Shown: positions 25,982-34,325 of the stretch, piece by piece
Numbering within the stretch: position 1 is the stretch's first letter
How the letters are laid out: the number at the start of each line of letters is the position of its first letter
Origin: a virus
Virus record (IMG/VR): IMGVR_UViG_3300030419_007131
Location: 1 to 64,000 of that record
DNA length: 64,000 bases
Reading direction: 5' to 3' (one strand)
Position numbers and translations under genes: made by a program
The notes under the pieces: generated by a model
Database searches by the model: none
Told to the model about the DNA's origin: nothing
The model's input: only the letters and a program-made list of their open reading frames with translations

Positions 25982-28900
25982 TTAATGTGGTCGGTAGGGA
26001 CTAATTGGTAGTTCCTCGATAACTTTCTCAACAATATTTTCGATGGGTGCGTCGCCCAGATATATCTTAATAACGGGAGCGGCTGCTTGTTGTTGCATCG
26101 CGGTCGTTGCGGCTGCCTGTGGCGTGGTCCCTGCGGCACCACCCGCGGCTCCAGGGGCTCCTGGCTGTCCTGCGGTGCCTGCGGCGCCGGGGGCGCCGGG
26201 GGGAGCAAATGTGCCGGCCGGTACCGGTTCGGGTGTGTACACTGACTTATTAAACTCAGTGAGCGCTTCAAGCTTCTTCACGTTCAATAGTAACAAGGCA
26301 GCAGAGAACTTAGCTAGGCCTCCAGCCATTTCACCAAAGGCGGCCCCAACCAACAACAGTTCCGGGGCGATCTCCGACAACACACGCATCGAAGATGACA
26401 TCTGTTCCATGCTGTTTCCGACTATTGCCAAAGCACCGCCCAAAGCATAAAGCGGCACAATCATGGCCACAATCGATGGGCCTGACATCAAGCTCGCGAG
26501 AGCAAATGCAGCGAAGCCGGCCGAAAGCACAACCAACCCCGCGCCGGCCTTCACTGCCTGGAGCGCAACAACAGTCAGCGCCGCGGCCAATTCGGCGACG
26601 ACGGCGGGAGATACCTGTCGCATGCTTGCTGCAAACAAGTCAACCGCTTTCGCACCCAAAAACAGTGCCACACTAACCAAAGTCAATGCTGCGCCCCAGC
26701 CAAAGAGAACAAAAGTAGAAGCTGCTATAATCGGCATCGCGAAAACAAGCGTCGTTGCTATTGCCGTAAAGCCCACTGCGGCTATAACCAAAGAGGCGCC
26801 CAACAATAAAAGACTAGCACTGAGAGCGGCCACGCCCATGGCAAGCTGGACCATCTTTTCGGGGGGCACCATCATGATGGCTTCCATAAAGACTGCCATC
26901 CCGGCCGCGGCAATATTAATTCCGGTGGCCATCATAATAGCTGCCACACCCATGGCAAGCAAGATAGCTGCCAAGCTAAGCAAAACAGGAGCTGTTGCTG
27001 TAGCACCTGCAGCTGCGGCGATCAAGGCCCACACTGACACAGAAAAGGCTATAACCCCAATACTGGCCGCGATTAGTTCTTCTCCACTAAGTCCCTTGAA
27101 AGATTCCACCAAGATGGACAAGCCCACAGCCGCCAGGCCGATTCCGACGCCGAGCATCAAGAAGGCGGCACCTACGGCCAAAATGCCGGGCGCTACACTA
27201 TAGCTTGCAGCGCCGATCGCAGTGATTGCAGGAACCATTGCGTACATTATGGCCACGAAGCCTCCCATTACAACTGCCAACCCTAAGACAGCGCCCACAA
27301 TTTGCCCCCCCGTTAGGTCTTGAAATGCTTCAACAAGGTGTGAAAGGCCAACCGCAGCGAGTCCGATTCCACCTCCAATCATTAAAATCGCTGCTCCAAA
27401 TGCAAGCATTTCTTTCCAGGTACCCTTGACCGCTTCACCAAGTTTTTTAATTCCCTCAGTAAACGAGTCCCATTTGCTTGTAGCATCAGGGGCGGGTGGC
27501 TCAGGTACGGGGGGTCCTCCTCCCGGGGCGCCGGGGGCACCGGGGAGAGAAGGCAACGCACTGCCCAAGCCTCCGAGCACACCCATCACCTTGCTACCTA
27601 TCGTGTAGGCAGACAACAAGCCAAGAGTTAATGCAGCGAGAGCACCGCCGAAGGTCCAGAAGCGTTTAACCCACTTGCCAACTTCCCACTCATTGCCCCC
27701 GATCTCAATAGTAAACTGTCCCACCATATTAATAAAATCAGAGAGGCCGCCGACGATCGTCGAGAAGAAGCCTATAACTGGATCCATGGCAACCACAAGA
27801 CTCATGAATGCATTTCTCAGCTTGTCCATGGTCTTCTGGGCCTCTCGCGCTGTTTCTGCTATTTTCTCTTGGTTGCGGATCTCCAGTTCTTCGGCAGCAG
27901 ATAGCTCGCCAAACATTCTACGAGCTGTATCAACATCAACGCCCAAAGCATCAGCAATTGCAAGTTGTTCGAACTTATTAAGCTCTGAATATGTTTGCCC
28001 TGCCATATCCATGGACTGCTTAAGCATGTCAATACGCTCTGCCTCTGAGGCGTTTAGCATATCAATAGAATTAAGGTAGGGGCCGCCTAATATTGCGTTT
28101 AGTTTGCCGACCTTTTTGGCTGCGCCATCAAAAGTATCAAATGCCTTGCCACTAATGTTCACTAGCTCAGTAACCGACAAACCGGTGGCCTTTGATTGTT
28201 TTTGAAGATCCTGAAAAACGGTTACCACGTCTTTGCCGTAAAATGCTAGCTGTTTAGAGACTGCATTAAAATCCTCAAATACCGCTTTAGTCGATTTTCC
28301 TAGACTTTGCGCTGTGGCGTGAAGGGTTTCGGTTAGGCCTTCCAATTGGTTCTCGTTGAACCCTAGCGATTTGGTCGCACGATCAAAAATTTGACCAGAA
28401 GTTTGAGAACTAACTCCCAACGCATCCAAAGCAACCGTTTGGGCAAGGATCGCTTCCTTTTGATCGTCGTTTAGGGTAGTAAAGTCACTATATCCATCAT
28501 ACAGCGCCCCCATTGCGGCGGCAGCTTCTTTGTGTCCGGCTCCAAATATTGCCACTTGGTCTCGGGTATTGGAAAGAATCTTTCCGTAGGAACCCAAGCC
28601 TTCTTCGTCGGCGGCGCCGGTCATACGCCGGAAAGCAGCTGCCGATTCATCGGTGGCATATGCAAGATTAAAGCTTTCGCCAATAAGTTTTCTAGCTATA
28701 TTAAAGAAGAACTGGCCGCTTGCTATCGACTCAACCGTTGCGGTCGCGAAGCCTCTCATTTCTTTGGCCGATAAGGGGACTGTGCGAGCCACCTCTTCCG
28801 CTGCGCCACCAATACTTAGAAAACTGTTAGCTAAATATTCAGCTTTGCCGGCGCCGGCTTCCATTTCCTTTGCCTGTTTTCGTAAAAGTTCGTTACCGTC

Positions 28901-29281
28901 CTTAATAGCTTGATTATTATCTTCGCGTAATTTCAGAGCCGCTTTAAGCTCGTGCCTGTTCCGGGCCCGGGCGATTTTATCTTCACCTGCCATACGGGTC
29001 TTCAATTCCTGAAGCTCTCGCTGTTGTTCAATGCTTATGCCGACAAGATTCTGCTCTTCTTCGATGTCAGCGATAGCTTGCTTCATCTCCTCGCGAGCTA
29101 TCTTGGCATTTTTGCGTACGCGATTCCAATATGACAGGTCGTCGTCGCCGTCGCCGCGAGCAGCACTAGAGGCGCGGGATTCCGTGCTGCTACGTCGAGA
29201 GCCCGAGCTGCCTTCCATGCCGGCTGCTAATTTTTCTAACTGTTGTATAAGGGCTTCAACCTGTGCGTCAGAAACCGCCAT
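25982..29281 (-). CDS. Tail tape measure protein
   Basis: 1099 residues. Residues 1-160 are charged and coiled-coil-prone, the middle resembles tape measure repeats (LGVSSQTSGQIFDRATKSLG, AKKVGKLNAILGGPYL), and about 540-1000 is a long series of Ala/Gly/Val hydrophobic helices (AFGAAILMIGGGIGLAAVGL, repeated in variant form). A short collagen-like Gly-Ala-Pro tract lies near 1030-1055. Length sets tail length; at about 1.5 A per residue the tail would be near 165 nm (rule-of-thumb estimate). The hydrophobic part may form the membrane channel for DNA. Position after the chaperone pair is canonical. Confidence 0.85.
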   Translation of the reverse strand: MAVSDAQVEALIQQLEKLAAGMEGSSGSRRSSTESRASSAARGDGDDDLSYWNRVRKNAKIAREEMKQAIADIEEEQNLVGISIEQQRELQELKTRMAGEDKIARARNRHELKAALKLREDNNQAIKDGNELLRKQAKEMEAGAGKAEYLANSFLSIGGAAEEVARTVPLSAKEMRGFATATVESIASGQFFFNIARKLIGESFNLAYATDESAAAFRRMTGAADEEGLGSYGKILSNTRDQVAIFGAGHKEAAAAMGALYDGYSDFTTLNDDQKEAILAQTVALDALGVSSQTSGQIFDRATKSLGFNENQLEGLTETLHATAQSLGKSTKAVFEDFNAVSKQLAFYGKDVVTVFQDLQKQSKATGLSVTELVNISGKAFDTFDGAAKKVGKLNAILGGPYLNSIDMLNASEAERIDMLKQSMDMAGQTYSELNKFEQLAIADALGVDVDTARRMFGELSAAEELEIRNQEKIAETAREAQKTMDKLRNAFMSLVVAMDPVIGFFSTIVGGLSDFINMVGQFTIEIGGNEWEVGKWVKRFWTFGGALAALTLGLLSAYTIGSKVMGVLGGLGSALPSLPGAPGAPGGGPPVPEPPAPDATSKWDSFTEGIKKLGEAVKGTWKEMLAFGAAILMIGGGIGLAAVGLSHLVEAFQDLTGGQIVGAVLGLAVVMGGFVAIMYAMVPAITAIGAASYSVAPGILAVGAAFLMLGVGIGLAAVGLSILVESFKGLSGEELIAASIGVIAFSVSVWALIAAAAGATATAPVLLSLAAILLAMGVAAIMMATGINIAAAGMAVFMEAIMMVPPEKMVQLAMGVAALSASLLLLGASLVIAAVGFTAIATTLVFAMPIIAASTFVLFGWGAALTLVSVALFLGAKAVDLFAASMRQVSPAVVAELAAALTVVALQAVKAGAGLVVLSAGFAAFALASLMSGPSIVAMIVPLYALGGALAIVGNSMEQMSSSMRVLSEIAPELLLVGAAFGEMAGGLAKFSAALLLLNVKKLEALTEFNKSVYTPEPVPAGTFAPPGAPGAAGTAGQPGAPGAAGGAAGTTPQAAATTAMQQQAAAPVIKIYLGDAPIENIVEKVIEELPISPYRPH

Positions 29282-29292
29282 CGCTCAACCCC

Positions 29293-29610
29293 CTAGTTTT
29301 TGAATGGCCACCTTAAGCCCGTCTCGCGCTCAAAGCCATTGACCGCCCTGGACAACTCATATTTGCTCATCATGGTGCGGCTATCGCCTAGGCCATATTT
29401 CATATATGCATCCATATAGCGCTTTTCGGTACTCAGCGCCTTCATAAAAGATTCTACTTGTGCCTGCGTGCCCTTTATTGTAGTGGGAAAGTCAAATCCC
29501 GCATGGTATAAATCAATAAGCATTCTCCTTACACTTAAGGAGAAATCTGTGTAAAGACGCTCATTAAGAAGAAGTTCTTTGTTGTTTAAATTGATTACTG
29601 TTTTCTGCAT
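29293..29610 (-). CDS. Small tail protein of unknown function (105 aa)
   Basis: The start at 29610 (MQKTVINLNNKELLLNERLY) has GAGGT ahead; an ATG at 29625 is the alternative. The protein is helical with a basic centre (DFSLSVRRMLIDLYHAGFDF) and ends near GFERETGLRWPFKN. It is not recognised. It begins a new unit: a terminator hairpin (29650-29671) and an AATAAATAG motif (29627-29635) sit directly upstream. Its place before the tape measure gene suggests a tail assembly role. Confidence 0.5.
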   Translation of the reverse strand: MQKTVINLNNKELLLNERLYTDFSLSVRRMLIDLYHAGFDFPTTIKGTQAQVESFMKALSTEKRYMDAYMKYGLGDSRTMMSKYELSRAVNGFERETGLRWPFKN

Positions 29611-29626
29611 GCGGACATACCTCATC

Positions 29627-29635
29627 AATAAATAG
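29627..29635 (-). promoter_or_regulatory. AATAAATAG motif, candidate late promoter
   Basis: 17 bp before the ATG at 29610 and directly after a terminator hairpin. Confidence 0.55.
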
Positions 29636-29672: not shown

Positions 29673-29876
29673 TTATTTCCTATGTTTTGATTTAGCCGAT
29701 CTTTGGGCCGACTCCATCTCTTCCTTTTGGGTTTTGAACTCCTTGATTAGCCTCTGAACGAACCATCTTCGCAATTGAGTAGGAATATTGTAGGCCTCGA
29801 ATATAGACCAGCCGCCATGATGTTTTAAAACAAACAGCTCTTCGTAAACAGCCTCTTGATACTCAGGACTTAGGCC
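29673..29876 (-). CDS. Frameshift extension of the tail assembly chaperone (+1 frame)
   Basis: A 67-codon segment, GLSPEYQEAVYEELFVLKHH then GGWSIFEAYNIPTQLRRWF and a Lys/Glu tail, lies in the +1 frame relative to the gp26-like gene and overlaps its last four codons. No start codon with a ribosome site is found near its beginning; the nearest in-frame ATG is at 29978, inside the gp26-like zinc region. A run of seven T in sense (plus 29877-29883) precedes it, so slippage would give a 350-residue fusion. Position just before the tape measure gene fits the gpG/gpGT chaperone scheme. Alternatives: an independent overlapping gene of T4 gp51 type, or a homopolymer error. Confidence 0.6.
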   Translation of the reverse strand, partial: GLSPEYQEAVYEELFVLKHHGGWSIFEAYNIPTQLRRWFVQRLIKEFKTQKEEMESAQRSAKSKHRK

Positions 29877-30726
29877 AAAAAAACTCTGCCGTAATCGGCA
29901 TACCCACCTTCCCCATATGATTACAGCTTTCGCATTCGAAATCAAAGTTAAGATCCAAGTCCGGAACGAGCGTGTCATACGCTGCACGGAGTTCGCGTGA
30001 AAGGCGTGTGGGACACCTCTCAACAAATCGTTTTATTTGTGATCGATCGGTAATGTCATTAACTCGAACTATGATGGCTTCCAACTGATCAGTGATATTG
30101 GTATCTGGGAGCTTCAGCTTGCGCTTTTTCTCGCGCCTAAGAGTAAGTGTCTTCTCGTCGGCTCCCGTTAAAAGCTTTACTTCAATAGCCAGACCTTCGT
30201 ATTTATCAAAAGTAAGAAGATAATTGCCATTTTCCAATACTTCAACCGCCTGAGGGGCTTCGTCTCGTGCTTTGGTCTCAAGGGCGCCCAGGTCGAGAAT
30301 GGTCTCGTTTTGTGTAGCGCACGACGGGCATGTAATCGATGTATTGTATTCGGGACCGAAGCCAGTTACACGGGCGGCGATCAAAAGAGCATTTTTATCG
30401 CCTATTAAGAGCTGTCCTGCTTTAACTTTCTTGTCGACCACAAGCGAATCGATCAATCGATCAAGAGCAACTCCTTTTTTAATTAAGGCCTCTGAGGTAA
30501 GAATGTCTTCTTCTTTGGCTGTCATGTGTCGGATCTCGACACTTTCAACTCCATGCAAAGGATGGCCTTCTCTATACAAGGCTCCCTTACTAGGAATGTC
30601 CACAAACTCTGTGGGAGTAATAAAGGAAAATATGTCGTCTGTTTGCTGTTCTGCCACAGCAGGAGGCGGAGTGGGGGCGTCTTGATGGGGAGCGCCTGTC
30701 CTCTCCGAGTTATTTCTTCGTGCCAA
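29863..30726 (-). CDS. Baseplate hub / tail assembly protein, T4 gp26-like
   Basis: 287 residues. The N-terminus is Pro/Gln-rich, then FITPTEFVDIPSKGALYREG, HMTAKEEDILTS and SLVVDKKVKAGQLLIGDKNA typical of the T4 baseplate gp26 family. A split zinc ribbon is formed by CPSC (near 134) and CESC (near 267). The end, PITAEFFWPKS, includes the TTT TTT T slip site four codons before the stop. In T4 gp26 is a hub assembly protein; here the gene order tube, this protein, frameshift ORF, tape measure also fits a tail assembly chaperone. Confidence 0.7.
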   Translation of the reverse strand: MARRNNSERTGAPHQDAPTPPPAVAEQQTDDIFSFITPTEFVDIPSKGALYREGHPLHGVESVEIRHMTAKEEDILTSEALIKKGVALDRLIDSLVVDKKVKAGQLLIGDKNALLIAARVTGFGPEYNTSITCPSCATQNETILDLGALETKARDEAPQAVEVLENGNYLLTFDKYEGLAIEVKLLTGADEKTLTLRREKKRKLKLPDTNITDQLEAIIVRVNDITDRSQIKRFVERCPTRLSRELRAAYDTLVPDLDLNFDFECESCNHMGKVGMPITAEFFWPKS

Positions 30727-30752: not shown

Positions 30753-31376
30753 CTATTCGCGACTTCGCTGTTCTGCCAGGTGTCGGCGAACACCGTCGGA
30801 CATGGGAGCGCCGCCCTCTTTAGGAGTATACGTAGCCCAATCATACCTGATTGTCAGCTCAATATTAAGTAATTCTTCGCCGCTATAATCTAAATCGCCG
30901 AACTTAGCATTAGTGATGAAGGGGCTGTTGAGTACCCATTCACCAATTTCTTGTCCTTGACCGTTAATCTCTGTAATCAATACAGCGCCCAATGTAGCCA
31001 GTGCAGCTTCTTTATTGGGAGTGCCAGGGCCAGGGCCCGGGCCGTTTTCTTCACCACCGCCACCGAAGAAGGCGGCCTGGTCGCCGGGATCAAAGTAGCC
31101 GGCCTCATAAAGAGCCTTATAAAGAATATCATTGCCATCAGGCTCCACGGAATTAACTAAGGTTACAGTAATAGGATCCCAAGTAACGGCGCCTGGATAA
31201 TAGTACGTATTACCAAGAAACTTGTGCTCGGTCTCGCTCAAAGTATAAGAAGGCTTTGTAACCGTCTTTGCCAGGTACCGAAGATCGCCTCCCGCTAGCG
31301 TACTCAAGTTGGGAAAATTCAATAGAAATCTATGTTGCCTGCGGGGCTCTGATGATGCTAAGTTCCAAAATGCCAT
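30753..31376 (-). CDS. Tail tube protein (T4 gp19-like)
   Basis: 207 residues from the ATG at 31376, chosen for ACAGGAGAC upstream; an in-frame extension upstream lacks support. MAFWNLASSEPRRQHRFLLN, YLAKTVTKPSYTLSETEH and NTYYYPGAVTWDPITVTLV match the gp19 tube fold. A Gly/Pro/Glu-rich loop (GGGGEENGPGPGPG near 120) is inserted. gp19 hexamers stack into the inner tube. It follows the sheath gene, as in T4. An ATTAAATAG motif lies 28 bp upstream. Confidence 0.88.
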   Translation of the reverse strand: MAFWNLASSEPRRQHRFLLNFPNLSTLAGGDLRYLAKTVTKPSYTLSETEHKFLGNTYYYPGAVTWDPITVTLVNSVEPDGNDILYKALYEAGYFDPGDQAAFFGGGGEENGPGPGPGTPNKEAALATLGAVLITEINGQGQEIGEWVLNSPFITNAKFGDLDYSGEELLNIELTIRYDWATYTPKEGGAPMSDGVRRHLAEQRSRE

Positions 31377-31403
31377 TTTTACATGTCTCCTGTTAAGGTC
31401 TAG

Positions 31404-31412
31404 ATTAAATAG
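31404..31412 (-). promoter_or_regulatory. ATTAAATAG motif, candidate late promoter for the tail tube gene
   Basis: 28 bp before the ATG at 31376, after a GGAGGT/ACCTCC hairpin (31417-31431). Confidence 0.55.
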
Positions 31413-31416
31413 TGTA

Positions 31417-31431
31417 AGGAGGTAAAACCTC
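31417..31431 (-). terminator. Short hairpin after the sheath gene
   Basis: GGAGG / CCTCC stem with a 5-nt A/T-rich loop, TTACACT after it in sense; a weak terminator. Confidence 0.4.
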
Positions 31432-31445
31432 CCCACATTTATTTA

Positions 31446-34325
31446 TTAATCGTCGAAAGATGCTCCCGTTCTTGTAATATTGAAATCGATTGCAATATAT
31501 TCGATTGCACGCGTCGGCTTCAAGAAGATCTGAGCATACATAATGTTCCGATCGATGAGATCCGGCGTCGTGGTGGTTTCATCCAGGACCACCTTAAAGT
31601 CAGAGAGACCAAAGTTAGTCTTGACAGACTGCAGCAAGGGCTCTACTTGAGCCTTGAAGCGGTCCCATGTCACCTTGACATTCGGATCGAAAAGGATTTG
31701 CGAAGCAATCTGCGAAATGCGCTTCTTCACGAAGATCATCAAGCGACGTACATTGATACGATCAAGCGCCGAAGCCGTCGTCTGAAGGGTCTTCTGACCG
31801 AAGATCACAATTCCTTCTGCAGGGAACTTCGCAATGGGGTTAATATTCGCTCCATAAAGGTCGTCGCGGTCCTTGCGGCGCAAGTGATGGGCCACATCTA
31901 CCACCGGGATGCCAGCGGCACCCTCGGTGAGGCCGCCGCGGTTGAAGCCTGCGGGGGCGAACCAGACCTGAGTCTTCTGCTGGGAGCTTGAGAATGTTCC
32001 CAAAGCCGCAACAGAGGGGGGCAGCCACACGAAGGATCCGTTCAGGGTATCTCGTGCACGCACCCATGGGTAGAAGGCGCAACCATACGAGGAGTTAAGG
32101 CCTCGGGAGCGCATTCCATTAACAGCTGCGCGAATGGTGGAAGCCCTGTTATTGCGTGCCTCGGCGAGGCCTTCGGCGCGAGGGGTGAAACCGCCCTCAA
32201 GGTCGATAATAGCCAAAGCATCGGCCCTCTCTTCGCACATGCGAATAAGATTGGTCGTAAGACCGGCTTGCTTGAGGCCAGGAATCGTAGCCAAGTTCAT
32301 TTCAGCCACCTCAGGGTCGGCGACCGAATCGATGGATCGACGAATGCTATTGAAAACATAGCTATTCTGGTCTGTTGCAGCTGAGCCCAAGTAACGAGCA
32401 CTGCTGTTGAAGGGATCCATCTCGTCAATTTCAGTTCCATCAAAGCCGCCGTACAGAGGCACAGTGAACCGATCGTAACCGGCATCGAGAACACCACTCA
32501 CCGCTCCACTAACTGCTGTAAGCGACGTTCCGGCGCGAGTTCCGCCGGAGCCGGCGTGTGATCCACTCACCCAGGCGCCAACCATGGAGCCTGAAATATC
32601 GTCAAGAGTAAACTCAACAGATGTTTCAGTCTTAAGCGTATTGCTGGCTCCGCCGAACATACTTCCAACGATGCCGCCGCGAGGACGGAGCATATCAATG
32701 GTAGAACTATCGAACACCGTGCTGCCAGCACCCTTGCTGGTCTGCAGTCCGAAGAATGCGTCAGTCTTATTGCTAAGATTGCCAGCGGAAGCGCTTGCGC
32801 GTAGCTCCGGAGCCGGGTAAAGAACCAAGAACTCGTTAGCAGCCTGATTATTGGTAGAAGCCGAGATGACAAAAATCGACCCACTAGTAGCAAGGGGACT
32901 GCCGGGGACTGCCATGCGCGTAGCATTACTGAGGGAACCGGAAATCCAGTTGCCCTGCCCGGTAGTGCCAAGCGTCTCTTCATCATCCCACTTGGTCATT
33001 CCACGGAAGCCAAAGGGCAGAAGAGCAGGGTTGGTAAGGCCCGCATTAACGTCCGAGTTCATCTCGACGCGAATGTAGGCAGAATTATTTGGCCAATCGC
33101 CTTCTTGAATATAGCGGCGCTCGGTCTCTTCCCACACGCGGCGCTGGTCGCCGACCTTGCGTGCAACATAGTTGGCCGAGTTGGGGTTAAGATCGCAGTT
33201 AGAAAACATTTCAACCACGCGAACCACATTATCGGAGTCGCTAAGGTGACGAACCACAAGAGTAAAAGTACCATAATCGCTGGAATCGGCAGAAGACCGC
33301 TGAATATCTTGGATAGATACCTTAAGGTTTCGGTTAGTCCAGTCGCCGGGCTCTTCGAGGGCTACAACCTTGAACAGATTTTGTGGAGCGTCTGCAGGGC
33401 CCAAGCGGCAGCTGATAATTTGAGGACTCTCCGCACCCTGAAGAGGGTCGGTGAAGTCACTCGCAGCAAGTGCGCTGGTACCGCCGGCCAACTTAACCAG
33501 GGCTCCATAAGTTGTACTAGACGTAATGTTCGACTTTAGATGACGATCAAAGGTCTCGCCGAGCCAGTAGTTAAGGGGGGTGGACGTCAAGCCAGAGTTA
33601 GTCAACTGAGGATTGGTGTTGAGAGACTTACGAATGTATCGTGAATCATTTTCATTAAAGTTAACAACCACAGTTGAATCCGAAGTGCCCTGATAATTGC
33701 TAAGATTAATCTTGAACTGATACTGGATGCCCGCATTGGAGCCCACCACGTAGTCAACACCCTGGACGGAGCTCGACGCGACGGTGCCTCCGCCCGTGCT
33801 GCCCGTGGTATCCACGTAAATGGCTCCGGACAACTGAGGCTCAAAGGAGCTATCGCCATATATAATAGCCGCGAGGGCGCCGGTAAGCTGTGTTCCGGTA
33901 ACGCCGGCAGGGCCACCGCCCTCAAACACGACCAGGCCCCATGCACTGGTGGAAGACCAGCCAGCAGGACCCTCTGTTCCGGTTGGACCACCGTCAGCAG
34001 TAGTCTCCGCGCCCAGGAGGCGAATATAAGTCAAAGGAGAACTGTTCTTAAGATAAGCTTGTGCGGCATACATGCCATAAGTGGGTGCCGACAAATCATT
34101 GCCAGTACGCCAGACATCATCGCCATCGCCACCAGCGGCAGGGGCGCCAAAGACGTTAACAAATTCTTCAAAAGAGTTAACAGTTATGGGCCGTAATGCT
34201 GGCCCTTTAGCGGCGCGGCCGATGACGACGGGGCCGATGCCCGCAGGGGAAGCGGGAAGTTGGGAGTTATCAATCTCATTGACAAAAACTCCGGGTGAGA
34301 CGAATCGATACTTTTTAGCTGACAT
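31446..34325 (-). CDS. Contractile tail sheath protein (T4 gp18-like)
   Basis: 959 residues, longer than T4 gp18 (659). The N-terminus YRFVSPGVFVNEIDNSQLP and GPVVIGRAAKGPALRP is the sheath handshake domain; the C-terminal domain shows RINVRRLMIFVKKRISQIAS and IEYIAIDFNITRTG. The excess of about 300 residues is a Ser/Gly/Thr-rich insert (about 100-620) that probably forms outer protrusions. AGGAGAAC precedes the ATG. The family forms the contracting sleeve that drives the tube through the envelope. Confidence 0.93.
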   Translation of the reverse strand: MSAKKYRFVSPGVFVNEIDNSQLPASPAGIGPVVIGRAAKGPALRPITVNSFEEFVNVFGAPAAGGDGDDVWRTGNDLSAPTYGMYAAQAYLKNSSPLTYIRLLGAETTADGGPTGTEGPAGWSSTSAWGLVVFEGGGPAGVTGTQLTGALAAIIYGDSSFEPQLSGAIYVDTTGSTGGGTVASSSVQGVDYVVGSNAGIQYQFKINLSNYQGTSDSTVVVNFNENDSRYIRKSLNTNPQLTNSGLTSTPLNYWLGETFDRHLKSNITSSTTYGALVKLAGGTSALAASDFTDPLQGAESPQIISCRLGPADAPQNLFKVVALEEPGDWTNRNLKVSIQDIQRSSADSSDYGTFTLVVRHLSDSDNVVRVVEMFSNCDLNPNSANYVARKVGDQRRVWEETERRYIQEGDWPNNSAYIRVEMNSDVNAGLTNPALLPFGFRGMTKWDDEETLGTTGQGNWISGSLSNATRMAVPGSPLATSGSIFVISASTNNQAANEFLVLYPAPELRASASAGNLSNKTDAFFGLQTSKGAGSTVFDSSTIDMLRPRGGIVGSMFGGASNTLKTETSVEFTLDDISGSMVGAWVSGSHAGSGGTRAGTSLTAVSGAVSGVLDAGYDRFTVPLYGGFDGTEIDEMDPFNSSARYLGSAATDQNSYVFNSIRRSIDSVADPEVAEMNLATIPGLKQAGLTTNLIRMCEERADALAIIDLEGGFTPRAEGLAEARNNRASTIRAAVNGMRSRGLNSSYGCAFYPWVRARDTLNGSFVWLPPSVAALGTFSSSQQKTQVWFAPAGFNRGGLTEGAAGIPVVDVAHHLRRKDRDDLYGANINPIAKFPAEGIVIFGQKTLQTTASALDRINVRRLMIFVKKRISQIASQILFDPNVKVTWDRFKAQVEPLLQSVKTNFGLSDFKVVLDETTTTPDLIDRNIMYAQIFLKPTRAIEYIAIDFNITRTGASFDD

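Follow-up and report, generated by a model that had tools for sequence, protein, structure and literature searches.

The window examined in this study, a whole stretch of 64,000 nt that forms part of a 165-kb virus contig, very probably contains a programmed +1 ribosomal frameshift from which the G and GT forms of a T4-type tail-assembly chaperone would be produced. As judged from sequence, a G/GT chaperone frameshift, here in the +1 direction, would be present in the T4-type family, which has been thought to lack it.

The genes concerned are located on the minus strand in the order sheath, tube, chaperone (gp26-like gene and ORF2), small ORF and long ORF. The features are as follows:

31446..34325, minus strand: tail sheath protein (contractile tail), phrog_23, 1.1e-69
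30753..31436, minus strand: tail tube protein, upstream of the gp26-like gene, phrog_4542, 8.8e-25
29863..30726, minus strand: gp26-like putative tail-assembly chaperone, 0 frame, 287 aa (G form), PF12322 and phrog_150
29887..29900, minus strand: 5' hairpin TGCCG-ATTA-CGGCA, candidate +1 stimulator, from synonymous-codon shuffles and pair counts
29875..29883, minus strand: putative shift site TTT TTT TGG, with first TTT at 29883-29881, slip TTT at 29880-29878 and skipped T at 29877
29863..29865, minus strand: 0-frame stop TGA, from the sequence
29673..29876, minus strand: ORF2, +1 frame, 67 codons from GGC (T domain), from conservation and dN/dS
29293..29628, minus strand: small ORF of 111 codons downstream of ORF2
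25982..29281, minus strand: probable tape measure protein, 1099 aa, assigned by length and position

The gp26-like gene was assigned to PF12322 (T4_baseplate, the gp26/gp51 family) with 49 bits, above the curated cut-off of 24.5, and matched the baseplate hub family phrog_150 (3.7e-16). Its start codon is TTG, preceded by the ribosome site AGAAGG approximately six bases upstream. No informative family match was obtained for the 1099-aa ORF (25982-29281). The gp26-like/ORF2 pair (30726-29673) is situated between the tube gene and the probable tape measure gene, as in G/GT chaperones. The fold of the gp26-like part alone was predicted with a pLDDT of 82; a Foldseek search against PDB gave no significant match, the HK97 tail assembly chaperone 2ob9 being placed first (E 0.64). 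Directly after ORF2 and before the 111-codon ORF, an inverted repeat resembling a terminator (GCCGCTC...GAGCGGC, then TTTT) was observed at 29670-29647 (minus strand). No tRNA genes were found in the window, and no Rfam match above threshold was detected near the shift site.

The 3' end of the gp26-like gene reads GCA GAG TTT TTT TGG CCT AAG TCC TGA in the 0 frame, with a run of seven T at 29883-29877 (minus strand), in agreement with the original prediction that GAG TTT TTT TGG ends this frame four codons before the stop. The ORF of 67 codons predicted to begin at the site in the +1 frame was likewise confirmed: its first codon is the GGC inside TTGGCC (29876), and it reads GGC CTA AGT CCT GAG TAT CAA..., that is GLSPEYQEAVYEELF..., up to a TAA at 29675-29673. 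The -1 frame is closed within a few codons of the site. Runs of seven T start at 18 positions on both strands of the window, so that the run by itself is unremarkable and its conservation is what deserves attention. Codon usage is 44 per thousand for GGC versus 11.7 for TGG, the A-site codon. Most Shine-Dalgarno-like motifs lie 26-32 nt from the slip codon, on its upstream side; an internal Shine-Dalgarno sequence of the prfB type was considered and rejected, since these motifs are too distant.

To determine the conservation of the site, the window gene was searched against IMG/VR proteins, and 80 of 581 relatives were listed. Among these matches and the window itself (48-100% identical), ORF2 was in the +1 frame in all 81 usable junctions, and the site was TTTTTTTGGCCT in 77 and TTCTTTTGGCCT in 4 of them. 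Additional searches with Microcystis phage Mel-JY01 and Flavobacterium phage immuto as seeds yielded approximately 160 further loci, giving a wider set of 189 distinct junctions, 181 of them readable in full. An in-frame Phe codon TTT followed by C or T was present 4-8 codons before the stop in 181/181 readable distinct junctions, which share ancestry and are to be counted as non-independent events. The T-run and both frames after it, whose conservation had been proposed as a check, are thus conserved in relatives. Variants of the site include TTT CTT TGG, TTT CTA TGG, CTT TTT TGG and TTT TTT TAC, and they share a Phe codon UUU whose tRNA, once moved forward by one base, is able to pair again with UUU or UUC. 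The sole junction without a UUU site was that of LR756511 (L085, ~3769), in which the gp26 C-terminus is longer and the +2 frame contains an ORF2-like stretch (MDEQFFFLYHLHVGRKDFLQYPINERKYIIHKF) that has an ATG.

Codon choice at the junction was also highly uniform. In 57 distinct window-group genes, the slip Phe codon was TTT in 57/57 and the Pro codon was CCT in 57/57; the most uniform of the other conserved Pro columns reached 65% of one codon, and the median single-codon share over 61 conserved degenerate columns was 53%. CCT is needed for the +1 reading (Gly-Leu). The slip TTT is read once, and its constancy is therefore unexplained by dual coding.

A UUU-based +1 overlap was found at the same place in isolates of unrelated hosts, namely phages of Microcystis, Flavobacterium, Rhodothermus (RM378), Bacillus (SP-15), Streptococcus, Listeria (LIS04) and Streptomyces (BRock), at approximately 25-36% identity where aligned. 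Their sites are TTT TTT TGG in RM378, TTT TTT CAC in SP-15, TTC TTT CGT in the Streptococcus phage, CTG TTT CGC in BRock and TTT TTT AGT in LIS04, where the slip would take place on the first TTT; the site of LR756508 is TTT CTA TTC. The +1 arrangement was also present in bacterial and archaeal MAG contigs, presumably viral. The pair was absent as a joined gene from the annotations of all isolate records inspected.

The hairpin of the window, TGCCG-ATTA-CGGCA, ends 3 nt before TTT TTT TGG and 6 nt before the slip codon. The 18 nt immediately preceding the site in the window group were more stably folded than after synonymous-codon shuffling (mean z -2.71), whereas windows elsewhere in the gene gave about 0. 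In 24-nt windows, the 5' folding z was -1.74 for the window group, -1.28 for the Mel group and -0.66 for the Flavobacterium group, and about 0 elsewhere in the gp26-like gene. Pairing was maintained in 82.9% of the alignment cells, versus 25-61% for slid versions of the hairpin. Covariation was modest, with one compensatory change, and 14 of 500 shuffles scored equally high. In sequences whose Thr codon differs at its third base, pairing is possible in another register (CCGC...GCGG). The hairpin is under selection at synonymous sites. Downstream of the site, the +1 groups gave weak signals for a stimulator (z 0.1 to -1.1). Engineered hairpins in the 5' position stimulate +1 and oppose -1 frameshifting in yeast, in human cells and with 70S ribosomes (PMC3639245, PMC6321510), and by analogy the 5' hairpin is a candidate +1 stimulator.

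From these data we infer the occurrence and efficiency of the shift, the effect of the hairpin and the chaperone action as follows. The majority of ribosomes would terminate at the TGA and release the 287-aa gp26-like protein, the G form. In a minority, tRNA-Phe would be in the P site on UUU while UGG, a codon with a single tRNA, awaits in the A site; the tRNA would advance by one base to the overlapping UUU and GGC would be read next, yielding a GT form of approximately 350 aa composed of the gp26-like part and a T domain of 67 aa. This forward movement might be favoured by the hairpin as it re-forms just behind the ribosome. If the pair acts like lambda gpG/gpGT, the tape measure protein would be coated by the G form and tube subunits would be recruited by the GT form, neither form remaining in the virion. 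A slip of the second TTT onto the next TTT with full pairing, as originally predicted, is the best supported reading, fitting the site variants best. In the TTT CTA variants re-pairing is possible only on TTT_C, and for TTT CTA TGG the slip would occur one codon earlier (UUU_C) or without re-pairing, so that the exact slip codon may differ between lineages.

The same fusion protein could be produced if RNA polymerase slipped on the seven-T run, some mRNAs carrying six (or nine) U. Long homopolymers are known polymerase slippage sites in bacteria, and a run of seven T is present in the window and most relatives, the sequence of this majority being compatible with such slippage. However, runs of four T (TTCTTTTGG) and of three T (TTTCTTTGG, TTTCTATGG, TTTCTATTC) keep the frame relation and a conserved ORF2; TTT CTT TGG and TTT CTA TGG contain no homopolymer longer than three T, and slippage of the polymerase fails there. 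The codon positions of the site are moreover tied to the gp26 reading frame, and a 5' hairpin beside it fits ribosomes better, which makes this explanation improbable. Slippage of the ribosome by -2 on the run of U, giving the same fusion with one extra Phe, would also re-pair on seven U, and Mu is one of the other phages for which -2 shifts are known; such a shift would find no re-pairing in the variants TTC TTT TGG and TTT CTA TGG, and we regard it as very improbable.

Both frames are under selection. For ORF2, dN was 0.08 and dS 1.15 between the window and its closest distinct relative (L003, 85%), and the median dN/dS in the window group was 0.19; ORF2 is under purifying selection. Conservation is continuous from the slip site onward, with the skipped base included, which argues against ORF2 being a separate small gene with its own start, translated by re-initiation after the gp26-like stop. 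This arrangement might be expected from several isolates in which ORF2 is annotated as its own CDS, and from Vibrio phage V09, Sinorhizobium phage phiM12 and Pseudomonas phage Cygsa01, where an ATG overlaps the stop (TAATG/TGATG) and re-initiation is a possibility. However, no ATG, GTG or TTG was present from the upstream stop to ORF2 codon 18 in 35 of 54 distinct window-group junctions; the possible starts in the remaining ones are at scattered positions, and the ORF2 frame is open for at most 8 codons upstream of the slip in 47/54. The original prediction that ORF2 has no start codon of its own with a ribosome site is supported by the relatives, in which no conserved start was seen, and L003 has no such start codon; in the window itself the frame is open for 52 codons upstream and contains five chance start codons. 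A separate gene is accordingly a highly unlikely explanation for the window group. The overlapping ATG lies at ~2807-2811 in Cygsa01 (L270), ~2347-2351 in V09 (L357) and ~2155-2159 in phiM12 (L358), and in these three phages a third expression mode, by translational coupling, is possible. Finally, homopolymers are error-prone, yet an assembly or sequencing error in a plain fusion gene can be practically dismissed and is refuted by the relatives, as the frame break recurs in hundreds of independently assembled contigs and isolate genomes with a constant T count, lending no support to six-T reads, and is also found at sites without a long homopolymer.

Regarding the family of ORF2, weak matches to DUF6760 (PF20546) were obtained for 17 of 28 members (best 1e-4), the window ORF2 (29676-29873) scoring 15.4 bits, below the curated cut-off of 27. 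DUF6760 is known from contractile injection systems, in which an equivalent chaperone pair might be present. Four bacterial genomes searched for DUF6760 gave no matches, and the controls likewise gave no match. Three ORF2 members matched phrog_634, a baseplate hub assembly catalyst (best 0.0082).

A counterpart in the -1 frame was found in cyanophages and other phages. With gp26 of cyanophage S-RIM8 as seed, 75 distinct junctions were collected, and in 75/75 of them ORF2 is in the -1 frame at U_UUU_UUC (TTT TTC after a T). A -1 arrangement of this kind, with either TTT TTC or TTT TTT following a T, was present in P-HM1, Aeromonas 65.2, phiWae14, Vibrio V09, Nitratidesulfovibrio SRB7757, PA5oct, Atu_ph07, RAS14 and phiM12. 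Across the -1 loci (L252, L254, L255, L267-L269, L277-L356 and L357-L360), which comprise cyanophages, vibriophages, Aeromonas 65-type phages and several jumbo phages, U_UUU_UUY is conserved; annotators entered ORF2 as a separate gp51 or missed it. Excess structure was detected just 3' of the site in the -1 group overall (z -2.24), with single members varying.

The +1 and cyanophage -1 ORF2 families matched each other in hhalign (91%, E 1e-6), from which they are homologous. Cyanophage gp51 has been described as approximately 20% of the length of T4 gp51, without the first ~200 residues (Sullivan 2010, PMC3037559). This short gp51 is probably the frameshift-encoded half of a gp26-gp51 fusion and not a truncated protein. 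It resembles the window ORF2 in being a homologous ORF directly after gp26, with the putative shift at the same two Phe codons, and differs in the -1 direction at U_UUU_UUC and in the excess 3' structure in place of a 5' hairpin, for which the 24-nt folding z in the cyanophage group gave no indication (-0.03). The chances seem even to us that within one homologous T4-type gene pair the direction of the shift switched in evolution together with the side of the hairpin (5' with UUU_UUU_UGG for +1, 3' with U_UUU_UUC for -1), with a duplication instead in T4. If true, the switch would show in nature what engineered hairpins have shown, namely that an upstream position promotes +1 and counteracts -1 shifting.

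In T4 (L251), PF12322 was matched by both gp26 (9e-64) and gp51 (4e-52), which on these profiles are paralogues; gp51 has approximately 45 residues beyond the gp26-like part, in frame. The cyanophage ORF2 matched the T4-type gp51 tail in hhalign (97.4%, score 56.9, against 22.8 for the best of 200 column shuffles). The direct profile match between the +1 ORF2 and the T4 gp51 tail was not significant (15.3, with shuffles reaching 17.8), and the link to the gp51 tail runs via the cyanophage ORF2. Since gp51 consists of a gp26-like part and a tail homologous to the cyanophage ORF2, gp26 and gp51 would correspond to G and GT; as the two are paralogues and gp51 carries the extra domain in frame, T4 apparently has a gene duplication in place of the frameshift. 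A chaperone role of the gpG/gpGT type, originally suggested from gene order, would gain support from T4 gp26/gp51 and cyanophage gp51 as well as from the gene order.

In a review of the T4 tail, gp26 and gp51 are hub assembly chaperones, gp51 being essential and of unknown function (PMC3004832), and a review of recoding describes T4 as the exception to an otherwise widely conserved G-T frameshift (PMC5009743). The gene pair could explain why T4 has seemed to depart from a rule that is nearly universal among long-tailed phages. T4-type tails would present the same G/GT system in three states, a +1 shift, a -1 shift and two genes, which would also explain the cyanophage gp51 at about a fifth of the T4 length. 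Moreover, gp26 and gp51 have long been classed as hub assembly factors whose action is unclear; as the short and the long tail chaperone they would have a function open to experiment. The +1 sites, which number in the hundreds and occur naturally together with a 5' hairpin, form with the homologous -1 sites a set for studying the direction of frameshifting.

The original prediction considered a +1 shift in a T4-type tail to be new. No report of a frameshift at gp26/gp51 was found in the open-licence literature, and in this respect novelty for T4-type tails stands; for the +1 direction in G-T genes there is a precedent, as such a shift has been regarded as 'very likely' in the haloarchaeal myovirus HSTV-2 (PMC5009743). 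As described in that review, HSTV-2 shares with the window a +1 shift in the same kind of gene and differs in being an archaeal virus. Listeria phage PSA also has +1 shifts (cps, tsh), at proline CCC sites and in structural genes.

T4 gp26/gp51 belong to the same PF12322 family and correspond to G/GT, but each is encoded by its own gene, that of the long form being continuous in frame, with no frameshift. A precedent for such a replacement is Bt phage 0305phi8-36, for which a two-gene chaperonin gp143/gp144 replacing G/GT was proposed (PMC2147016): two paralogous genes take the place of the G/GT frameshift, as proposed here for T4, and the likeness is one of arrangement, with no frameshift in that phage. 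Bacterial release factor 2 (prfB, CUU_UGA_C) is similar in its P-site slip from YUU_U onto UUU before a slow A-site codon and in an upstream element adjoining the E site; in the window the A-site codon is UGG and not a stop, and a hairpin is present instead of an internal Shine-Dalgarno sequence. Finally, the window resembles lambda gpG/gpGT (Xu, Hendrix and Duda 2004; PMC5009743) in that a presumably non-structural pair is flanked by the tube gene and the tape measure gene, with a short form, a form extended by the frameshift, and a slip a few codons before the stop. It differs in that the shift would be +1, the usual G/GT shift being -1, in that the slip would occur on a single Phe codon UUU and not on an X_XXY_YYZ heptamer, and in that the G part belongs to the PF12322 (T4 gp26) family.
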